This document shows, one piece after another, positions 8,676 to 30,443 of a DNA stretch of 64,000 nt. Source of the stretch: Halocatena marina (GTDB lineage: Archaea; Halobacteriota; Halobacteria; Halobacteriales; Haloarculaceae); NCBI RefSeq assembly GCF_023276375.1, contig NZ_JALLPK010000001.1, forward strand, positions 2,108,001 to 2,172,000. The letters run 5' to 3'. The translations under genes were made by a program, and so were the position numbers. Positions within the stretch are counted from its first letter, which is position 1; each line of letters begins with the position of its first letter. The notes under the pieces were generated by a model. It saw only the letters and a program-made list of their open reading frames with translations, was not told the origin of the DNA and searched no databases.

Positions 8676-9692
8676 TCAGCATCCATTCCCGAATCCCTCT
8701 GTCGCGTACAAAACGTCGTCATCGGTAATTGCGATACCGATGCCTTCTGTCTTCCACGTTCCAAGGATGTTCCGACGGTGAGAATCGCTCGACCACCACT
8801 GCTCGACGATATTGGCGGCGATCTCCTCGGGAGAGGTGCCCTGAATGCTCCGATACAGAATATTCTCTCCCAACCCGTTGCAGCTGATGCCCTCGTCGTT
8901 GTAGTGATCCGCGAAGCTGTCATCCCCAGGTGCAACGTGGGAGAAGTAGTCACGGTCGATCATGTCCTGACTGTGCTTGCGAGCGACACTCGCCATTTGG
9001 GTGTCGTATGAGATGGGTGCTTTACCGTTGTTCTTGCGCTGCCGATTGACTTCCTGATGAACGTTGCGCTCAATCTGATGGATGGTGGACGATCCATCTT
9101 CATCCGATTCTGTTGACGATCCGTCTCCATCTGATTCACTGGATGACCCGTCCCCATCCGATTCAGCGGGCGATCCGTCATCTGATCCGGCGGATGATCC
9201 ATCTCCACCCGATTCAGCGGACGATCGTTCGGTGACAGTCAGCGTGTAGCGTCCACTACCTTCGTGCGAGCTAACAAGAATTCGCAGGTCCGTCGAACTA
9301 TCCGGATCGTCGAGAGTGATCGATCCTTTGCTGGCTTTCGACCACGACTGCTGATCAGAGTGAGACCCGATTGGACAGGAAGTGGTGCCTTCACTGATAT
9401 AGAGGTCGAAATCCGCGCCATCCGGTCCAACAAGCTCGACGACAACCGTCCTCGGGCTGGAAAGCTCCCACTTGTATGACCAGTACTCGCTCTCCCAGGT
9501 TCTGGCGAGCGAACTATCGACACTCGCTGTGGCAGAATCCGAACCACTCCCCTGTCCCGCTCCACGATCAGAATCGGTAGTGGTAGCGGAAGCGGGAGTG
9601 GCCATACCACCGATGGTAGCCACCGCACCTCCTGTTCCAATCGCTTTCAACAGTGTTCTGCGTTCGAAGCCGTTCTCTATTTCATCCGACAT
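8676..9692 (-). CDS. Secreted CAP-domain protein with PPC-like domain
   Basis: A 338-residue exported protein. Residues 1-36 form a Tat-like signal (RRTLLKAIGTGG...ASA). Residues about 55-160 form a beta-rich PPC-like domain (LVGPDGADFDLYIS; GSGRYTLTVTE). Residues about 162-202 are an acidic Ser/Asp/Gly repeat linker with units such as SESDGDGSS. Residues about 210-338 are a CAP (SCP/PR-1) domain with HSQDMIDRDYFSHVAPGD, GLGENI and WWSSDSHRRNIL. CAP domains are widespread in secreted proteins and their role in archaea is unknown. The gene sits between menA and menC on the same strand, although nothing ties it to quinone synthesis. Confidence 0.88.
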   Translation of the reverse strand: MSDEIENGFERRTLLKAIGTGGAVATIGGMATPASATTTDSDRGAGQGSGSDSATASVDSSLARTWESEYWSYKWELSSPRTVVVELVGPDGADFDLYISEGTTSCPIGSHSDQQSWSKASKGSITLDDPDSSTDLRILVSSHEGSGRYTLTVTERSSAESGGDGSSAGSDDGSPAESDGDGSSSESDGDGSSTESDEDGSSTIHQIERNVHQEVNRQRKNNGKAPISYDTQMASVARKHSQDMIDRDYFSHVAPGDDSFADHYNDEGISCNGLGENILYRSIQGTSPEEIAANIVEQWWSSDSHRRNILGTWKTEGIGIAITDDDVLYATEGFGNGC

Positions 9693-16610: not shown

Positions 16611-16800
16611 TACGTGAAATATTCTCTCCGGAACACTAACTGTACCGTTCTTCGCGCCACAGACGTTGTTTAGACATCACACATGAGATAGAATGCCATA
16701 CATTCATCGGATCAGTGAAAATGATACCTATCGAAGTAAAAATTTCAGTTGAAACAAAGAGATTGTGGGAATATATGATAATCATAGAGGTAGTAATAAA

Positions 16801-16923
16801 TCAGAGTATATAACCGAATGTGGCACAGTAGCAGAGAACACAGTCGACACGGGTCTGTGTGCTGTTATCTGAATCGACTGTCGGACAGCGGTCAGTTGAC
16901 GATTCTTGGGCTTCGTCCACCAT
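16801..16923 (-). CDS. Possible 40-residue Cys-containing microprotein
   Basis: An ATG-initiated frame of 41 codons has an acidic, Ser/Thr-rich first half and a hydrophobic, Cys-rich end (DCVLCYCATFGYIL). Codon use is compatible with the host. No family is recognised, no clear promoter is visible, and two other frames across the same bases are partly open. It could equally be chance. Confidence 0.22.
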   Translation of the reverse strand: MVDEAQESSTDRCPTVDSDNSTQTRVDCVLCYCATFGYIL

Positions 16924-17101
16924 CGACGTAGACTCAGCAACTGAACTTTTGGGTGGTGCCAGTGGGACACACGTATGGTGAAATCAAAATCCTCCTGATC
17001 TCGCCGTTGGGTGTATTATCCAATCGATAGATGAATTTGTATCTGTTTATTTTTATAAACAGTTGAGTCAGTCATGCGCAGAATTAAATAATATACCACA
17101 G

Positions 17102-17262
17102 ATTTATCCGTGGTTGTGTTGAACAATCAGATGGTCCTCAATGGGATAAGTTGGAGACCGAAACCGTGTTTCACACACGGTTTTCCCCAATGCTTCGAAC
17201 CAATGTCTTGATATCCCGTGTTCGGTCTCCAGTTGCTTCTATCATGCTATAGTACTTAACCT
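17102..17262 (+). ncRNA. Candidate structured RNA, copy A
   Basis: This element is homologous to 30202-30370 and folds the same way. Outer stem P1: 17145-17150 with 17237-17243, with a single bulged base at 17239. P2: GGAGACCGAA (17153-17162) pairs with TTCGGTCTCC (17221-17230), 10 bp. P3 hairpin: ACCGTGT (17163-17169) pairs with ACACGGT (17175-17181). Between P3 and the P2 return strand, a largely conserved 39-base stretch contains CAATGTCTTGATAT. Paired positions differ from copy B by compensatory changes. Strand is inferred from G-U pairs that work only on plus. An AT-rich box at 17081-17097 could be its promoter. Confidence 0.6.
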
Positions 17263-17490
17263 TCATATATAGTTACCAAACCATAAAATTTGAAAGATAC
17301 TTACCACGTGAATCAGGCGAGTTCTCCAATCGTTAGCAATAGTGCATCATCAGAGGAAGACAAGCGATTTTACCGAGATAGATATCAAACAGAGATTATT
17401 CTCATGTCTTCATCAGGATCGATAAGCTTAGATAACGATTCTAAGAGGTTATGGATAGCATGGATTATACAGCAATAGATCAATACAGAG

Positions 17491-18087
17491 CTAACTGTAC
17501 CGTTCTTCGTGCCATGGATTAGCCGTTTGGGAGTAGCCACGTTTTTCCCAGTATCCACGCTTCTTTTCAGTCAAGAATTCGATACCTGTAATCCACTTAG
17601 GACCCTTGTACGCGTATTTGTGTGGAGTTACTACCCTGAGCGGTCCACCGTGCTCGCCCGTCAGTGGTTCACCGTCGAGTTCCCATGCGAACATGACCTC
17701 ATCGCGGAGACAATCCGAGAGTGGAAGATCCGTCGTATATCCATCGAGTGCGTGGAACATGACGTGTACAGCATCATCGGAGACGCCCGCACGATTGGCG
17801 AGCGTCGGGAACGTAACTCCAGTGAACACACAATCGAGCCGGCTCCAGCCGGTCACGCAGTGGAAATCCTGTCGCTGGCTCTCGTGGGGGAGTTGCTGGA
17901 ACGCATCGAACGTGTATGATAGCTCGTTCTCGATCGCCCCCCAGCAGCGAAACTCCCACGTCTCTGGGTCCCACGACGGAACGTCTCCCTTCGAGAGCAC
18001 AGGGAATGCTGAGGTCTCACGCTGGCCAGGTGGTAACCGATCACCACCGAATTCTTCGTGAATTTCCGTCACGTCCTCGTATTCCAT
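17491..18087 (-). CDS. Sulfite oxidase-type molybdopterin oxidoreductase
   Basis: A 198-residue protein with the molybdopterin fold of the sulfite oxidase/MsrP family. The molybdenum-ligating Cys is in FHCVTGWSRLDCVFTG. Other family segments are MFHALDGYTTDLPLSDCL, ELDGEPLTGEHGGPLR and the end YKGPKWITGIEF. It lacks the heme and dimerisation domains of full sulfite oxidases and has no export signal, so a cytoplasmic location is likely. The substrate is unknown. I use the ATG at 18085-18087; the frame extends to a TTG at 18135. A moaB gene at 34.7 kb may contribute to its cofactor. Confidence 0.85.
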   Translation of the reverse strand: MEYEDVTEIHEEFGGDRLPPGQRETSAFPVLSKGDVPSWDPETWEFRCWGAIENELSYTFDAFQQLPHESQRQDFHCVTGWSRLDCVFTGVTFPTLANRAGVSDDAVHVMFHALDGYTTDLPLSDCLRDEVMFAWELDGEPLTGEHGGPLRVVTPHKYAYKGPKWITGIEFLTEKKRGYWEKRGYSQTANPWHEERYS

Positions 18088-29987: not shown

Positions 29988-30201
29988 CCAATATGTAGAA
30001 TTGATTATAACGGTGAATATTCAATCGATTCGTTATTGTATCGCCTGAGATATGCGCTGTGACTCCGGTGTTCCATTTTGAATAGTCAATTGAGTGGATA
30101 ACATCAGTTAAGAATCAGTGTATTCGTAGCGATAGCCGTGAACACAGAGTAATGAAGTCAGCTACGGTTGTCTAAATGCTAGATCCAAAGAGTATCACCA
30201 G

Positions 30202-30370
30202 ACTTATCAATGATTGTGTCAAAATAAATCATGGTCTTCTTGGAATGCGTCGGAGACCACTTGCCGTGTGTTCAGGCACACGGCCTTTAACCGATGCGTT
30301 CAAGCAAATGTCTGATATTTTGTGTGAGATGTGGTCTCCAATCGCTATTAGGATGCGTACCGCTTAATCA
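30202..30370 (+). ncRNA. Candidate structured RNA, copy B
   Basis: This is the homologue of 17102-17262. P1: AATGCG (30244-30249) pairs with 30343-30349, with one bulged base at 30346. P2: GGAGACCAC (30252-30260) pairs with GTGGTCTCC (30331-30339), 9 bp. P3: GCCGTGTG (30263-30270) pairs with CACACGGC (30277-30284), 8 bp with a 6-base loop. The 46-base stretch between P3 and the P2 return strand contains AAATGTCTGATAT, close to copy A. Flanks 5' of P1 (ATCATGGTCTTC) and 3' (a CTTAA block) also match copy A. A TCTAAAT box near 30170 is a possible promoter. Confidence 0.6.
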
Positions 30371-30443
30371 TTTATTTTGTTTACTAAACCCGTATGTAGT
30401 GAAAAATAGTTTCAACCATTTTATTCACAAAAACTATTGGAAT

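Follow-up and report, generated by a model that had tools for sequence, protein, structure and literature searches.

Translational riboswitches and autoregulatory mRNA leaders carry a structured 5' leader in which two mutually exclusive helices can form, one of them over the translation start. Leaderless transcripts make up 72% of the protein-coding transcripts of Haloferax volcanii, where structured leaders have been described as not typical (PMC4983044). Here we describe an element from Halocatena marina with the same layout of a structured 5' leader and two exclusive helices, one over the start. Unlike translational riboswitches, it has no known ligand or aptamer and no Rfam match. The stretch of DNA that was analyzed, hereafter the window, comprises 64,000 nucleotides of contig NZ_JALLPK010000001.1 (positions 2,108,001 to 2,172,000).

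Three further haloarchaeal systems invite comparison. The C(P)XCG zinc-finger microproteins (PMC11241148) resemble the small CPxCG proteins encoded after many of the leaders described here; they are defined by two CxxC-type motifs and a length below 70 amino acids. The Halocatena proteins, in which the motifs are present, have 79 to 94 amino acids, and the Halorussus protein has 59. The microprotein study mentions neither a leader nor CRISPR (PMC11241148). CreTA (PMC8501985, PMC9458426) likewise consists of small transcription units beside CRISPR repeats in haloarchaea, but the cas genes that we examined beside a cassette are of type III-A rather than type I, and the unit encodes a zinc-ribbon protein. 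Finally, the leader stands right before coding sequences (CDSs) annotated as RPA type or hypothetical at 12 places on Haloarcula plasmids, and no conserved leader for haloarchaeal plasmid RPA/SSB genes was found in the literature searched.

Copies of the leader in Halocatena marina

The initial annotation reported two diverged copies of a three-stem element, and these were recovered: positions 17100 to 17272 (copy A) and 30200 to 30380 (copy B) of the window align over their full length (Table 1). As described there, P2 consists of GGAGACC extended by GAA/TTC in A and by AC/GT in B, and P3 carries an A-T to G-C exchange between the two. Homologues were found beyond the window. Two further clear chromosomal copies, C (C1:695134-695309) and D (C1:3708514-3708692), about 70% identical, were identified by blastn and a covariance model, a diverged fifth copy (E) lies on plasmid contig C4, and model searches also reached loci in sister species. 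Rfam gave no match across the window at the gathering threshold, and a search of eight relatives at E <= 1 returned nothing except a tRNA. In contrast, the third stem, P1, can be paired by inspection in A and B but not convincingly in C and D, and on the minus strand it corresponds to the spacer between the TATA box and P2 and to the linker before the start rather than to a conserved helix. The unpaired stretch annotated as a conserved loop is indeed conserved, but it forms the multiloop that joins P2 to P3; its conserved TGGTCC is complementary to GGACC in the start-proximal segment.

Table 1. Features of copies A and B and of the insertion around copy A (window coordinates)
Feature	Position	Strand	Remark
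Copy A, TATA box TTAAGTA	17253..17259	-	29 nt before P2; near-constant spacing among copies
Copy A, P2 5' strand GGAGACCGAA	17221..17230	-	P2 covariation
Copy A, predicted transcript start	at or next to 17230	-	predicted
Copy A, hairpin P3 (ACCGTGT...ACACGGT)	17163..17181	-	
Copy A, P2 3' strand TTCGGTCTCC	17153..17162	-	GGTCTCC alternatively pairable with 17133-17139
Copy A, start-proximal segment GAGGACC	17133..17139	-	next codon ATC, not ATG
Copy B, TATA-like box ATTAAGC	30362..30368	-	
Copy B, P2 5' strand GGAGACCAC	30331..30339	-	P2 covariation
Copy B, hairpin P3 (GCCGTGTG...CACACGGC)	30263..30284	-	
Copy B, P2 3' strand GTGGTCTCC	30252..30260	-	P2 covariation
Copy B, start-proximal segment GAAGACC	30233..30239	-	same as in intact genes
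Copy B, residual 17-codon ORF MIYFDTIIDKSGDTLWI	30179..30232	-	begins at zinc-ribbon protein start position
Direct repeat, left copy, 24 bp	16636..16659	.	brackets A-containing insertion
Direct repeat, right copy, 24 bp	17491..17514	.	3' end of molybdopterin oxidoreductase gene

One intact leader with its zinc-ribbon gene is present in Halocatena marina (C1:235355-235579). The ATG is absent from A, C, and D, and in A the ATC that follows GAGGACC in its place means that the start has been lost. Copy B retains the ATG and 17 codons, with a weak N-terminal likeness to MFDFDSSTQKSFDEL (E = 3.2) at the expected position. A tblastn search for relics of the zinc-ribbon open reading frame (ORF) downstream of A, C, and D gave results at the level of chance. 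Since the start codon was lost in three copies, the ORF of B is reduced to 17 codons, and no downstream ORF is recognizable, we regard A to D as leader-only derivatives. Thus, these four copies are either relics reduced to the leader or RNAs that consist of the leader alone, the coding part being gone (A, C, and D) or nearly gone (B). A and B probably represent minus-strand promoter and 5' leader units, and the leaders would belong to one class of structured mRNA leaders in haloarchaea. A role of A to D as cis-regulators of their own neighbors was considered and rejected: the downstream genes differ, and they lie 240 to 530 nt away or on the opposite strand.

Strand, promoter, and predicted transcript start

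On the minus strand, the leader is ordered as a TATA box, 28 to 30 nt, P2, P3, the P2 3' strand, a linker, a segment of 7 to 8 nt, and AUG, and the same order was found in sister Halocatena species and on plasmids of Haloarcula, Halorussus, and Haladaptatus. A TATA-like box lies 28 to 30 nt upstream of P2 in 18 of 19 copies. It is present in A to D, in the CRISPR-type genes, and in the deeply diverged loci L045, L055, L056, and L064, although for F, L043, and L045 the automatic scorer chose other offsets and the box was read by eye from the sequence; copy E has no clear TATA box at this spacing. Certain P2 pairs (the fifth pair, for example) are G-U pairs that are possible on the minus strand only. 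The element is read on this strand because the TATA box, the G-U pairs, and the start codon and gene of the relatives are all found there. Given the distance between the TATA box and P2, the RNA should begin at P2, and transcription is predicted to start at the P2 5' strand, about 29 nt past the box.

Compensatory changes in P2 and P3

Pairing was evaluated in 14 distinct relatives, with the P2 and P3 segments aligned by hand, loops left uncounted, and shuffles that ignore relatedness. On this basis, 10 of the 17 pairs had changed on both sides, compared with 4.8 +/- 1.2 in the shuffles, and 91.6% of the cells were paired, compared with 77.4 +/- 1.5 in the shuffles. None of 500 shuffles matched the observed values. 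Pairing in P2 and P3 is preserved by compensatory changes far more than expected by chance, which bears out the annotation of a selected RNA structure. The variants of P3 include CCGTGTG/CACACGG, CCGGGTG/CACCCGG, AAGGGTG/CACCCTT, and GGGAATG/CATTCCC, among others, and copy E lacks a good P2. A pattern scan for the P3 hairpin (GCCGGGTG-loop-CACCCGACG) returned 36 viral contigs (L119 to L154).

An alternative helix at the start codon

The segment abutting the AUG offers a second complement to the P2 3' strand, and we refer to the resulting alternative helix as Palt. Palt covaries within Halocatena, and two-sided changes were found at seven of its eight pairs when Halocatena, Haloarcula, Halorussus, and one further genus were considered. 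Across genera, the covariation score was 0.506, compared with 0.242 when shuffled and at most 0.190 when slid. Triplets that change together include GGAGGCC/GGUUUCC/GGAAACC, GAAAGACA/UGUCUUUC/GAAAGACA, and GAAAGCC/GGCUUUC/GAAAGCC. The A and F types of Halocatena carry a Palt mismatch, and L107 and L112 fit Palt poorly and were both kept as uncertain members. The complementarity could partly reflect a short repeat, given the similarity of the start-proximal segment to the P2 5' strand. Folding prefers P2 over Palt and predicts that the last 7 nt before the start are mostly unpaired in 18 of 19 leaders (mean probability, 0.57 to 0.99), with a mean of 0.12 in copy E.

The covariation of Palt, together with a P2-favored fold in which the start-proximal nucleotides are free, points to a two-state leader that probably governs access to the start codon. 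One leader would adopt two mutually exclusive folds. In the favored fold, P2 would close a domain with P3 (and P4 in other members) and the 7 to 8 nt before the AUG would be mostly free, while in the alternative these nucleotides would pair with the P2 3' strand, so that the start region is covered. Since P2 and Palt exclude each other at the start, translation would be switched by a factor able to bind or open the P2/P3 domain, and the trigger would most likely be autoregulation by the encoded zinc-finger protein. The strand, the architecture, the covariation of P2, P3, and Palt, and the linkage to genes are established by computation; the transcript start, the switching, and the trigger are inferred. 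The sequences also display the features of a cis-regulatory leader, namely a position upstream of a start codon in the relatives (no longer in A, C, and D), compensatory pairing, and an alternative helix at the start as judged from the sequences.

Zinc-ribbon genes and CRISPR arrays in sister species

A covariance model built from A to D on the assumed plus strand (R1) gave significant matches only to the copies of the species itself and none in relatives. A low-stringency search of the genus yielded weak matches that later proved real, and a model extended with these (R2) recovered ten loci from three sister genomes; nine had E <= 4e-5, and the tenth was weak. On the minus strand, these matches lead into an ATG and an ORF for a CPxCG zinc-ribbon protein of 79 to 94 amino acids (...CPACG...CQLCDAV...), which begins exactly past GAAGACC or a variant of it. 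None of the curated families matched these proteins above its cutoff, the best subthreshold matches being PF12760 and TIGR03655 (E of about 1e-4), and in 391 genomes of the class a profile of the protein found matches in Halocatena only.

The leader also draws attention to a cassette with a zinc-ribbon gene in close association with CRISPR arrays. Nine of the ten sister-species cassettes lie downstream of the end of an array, seven at a distance of 130 to 218 nt and the other two within 1.5 kb. Four cassettes have a stretch resembling a CRISPR leader right behind the stop codon, with the next array starting 134 to 136 nt after the stop. The position of the Halocatena cassettes at array ends suggests, tentatively, a regulated CRISPR accessory protein. 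The cas genes adjoining one cassette are of type III-A (Cas10, Csm3-5, and Csx1). No cassette was recognized by R2 at the type III-A locus on contig C3 of Halocatena marina. Among the matches listed, no spacer or terminal pseudo-spacer matched the cassettes beyond chance, the best match being 11 nt or a homologous flank. CreTA was rejected as the identity of the cassettes, since a pseudo-repeat RNA with a partial match to a toxin promoter was not seen among the spacer matches listed. Individual cassettes occupy array ends as well as the gaps separating one CRISPR array from the next (L082 to L086 and L088 to L090 in genomes G002, G004, and G005). At L091, on plasmid contig C3 (G000), two arrays (8707-9102 and 17143-17762) with slightly different repeats surround a type III-A cas10/csm operon that also includes Csx1 and Cas6.

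Leaders in other genera and on plasmids

Outside Halocatena, a minus-strand covariance model (R3) gave weak matches (E of 0.15 to 0.4 per genome), and members there were accepted on the basis of their architecture, judged by eye, and of conservation among plasmids. The Haloarcula leader (L108) is conserved at all 12 places, where the CDSs that directly follow are annotated as RPA type ("SOSS complex subunit B") or hypothetical, and its P2, P4, and P3 helices are 99.3% paired, with compensatory changes. On Halorussus plasmids, the leader, found through a short match, precedes an ORF of 24 amino acids (MYxS...EEKR), which is followed by a 59-amino-acid CPxCG ORF in H. caseinilyticus and by a 124-amino-acid ORF with CWCG and CRDC motifs in H. 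pelagicus. The 24-amino-acid ORF is conserved between the leader and the next ORF (L166, L167, and L168) and is a possible leader peptide. A SWIM zinc-finger gene lies directly 3' of the leader on a Haladaptatus plasmid. The genes after these leaders mostly encode zinc-finger proteins. Zinc fingers are frequent in small haloarchaeal proteins, which counts against the reading as two-state leaders of zinc-finger genes. A descriptor of the architecture, whose recall was low (about one-third of known copies), gave two matches in 728 kb of shuffled DNA and only B and L055 in 182 kb of real DNA. A blastn search with A gave no match among plasmids and phages because the leaders diverge too fast. The candidate L106 looks like a chance match and was rejected as a member.

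These leaders may form an undescribed class of start-codon RNA switches for zinc-finger genes in several genera and on plasmids, possibly sensing zinc or the encoded protein, with a Halocatena branch in CRISPR loci; we put this forward tentatively. A leader shared by several genera, with two covarying helices at the start codon, would stand out because haloarchaeal mRNAs are thought to be mostly leaderless, and it would give a handle on many small zinc-finger proteins that lack an assigned function.

Alternative explanations and the insertion at copy A

Mutually exclusive helices are typical of attenuators too, and P2 and Palt might act on transcription or mRNA stability (attenuation or processing) instead of start-codon access. 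However, the start codon almost always marks the end of Palt, and no run of U residues was noted after it among the leaders read, which makes this explanation quite improbable. The free-standing plus-strand RNA family proposed in the initial annotation draws on the fact that P2 and P3 can pair on both strands, but promoter, G-U pairs, and downstream genes alike place the element on the minus strand, and its origin is probably as the promoter and 5' leader of protein genes; we consider a plus-strand family extremely unlikely.

A further explanation sees in the copies what is left of a small mobile element, with the conserved structure merely reflecting this origin. Several copies do lie in intergenic regions, and A, unlike B to E, is part of an insertion of about 0.8 kb that is specific to the species and has a 24-bp direct repeat (23 of 24 positions identical) on either side, at a place where the flanking genes are 52 to 118 nt apart in five sister genomes without it. 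Yet B to E have no direct repeats above the shuffle level, identity between the copies is only about 70%, only about 200 bp are common to them, and intact genes of other genera are preceded by the same leader. Sharp shared ends and target-site duplications, as in MITEs or insertion elements, were not found, the repeat around A being 0.8 kb wide and off the element ends. The mobile-element alternative named in the annotation therefore retains the repeat at A but is unlikely overall. More plausible, though still doubtful, is that A to D are now independent minus-strand small noncoding RNAs (decoys or sponges) whose promoter and fold are kept because the RNA has a use of its own, such as titrating a factor that attaches to the leaders of intact genes. 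A to D have retained the fold and the TATA-like box while losing start codons, their P2 strands are the best-conserved part (identity of 0.93 and 0.80, compared with about 0.48 in the flanks), and 34 nt past the start position are also conserved (0.66). Against this, the comparison comprises four sequences only, the similarity may stem from a leader-only ancestor rather than from maintenance, and the four showed no shared terminator. The junction of the insertion around A (window 16636-17514) natively has short CGGTACAG repeats, and CAGTTGAAACAAAG, which resembles the end of the Halocatena CRISPR repeat, is common to position 16746 of the window, near A, and position 9238 of L014, near D.
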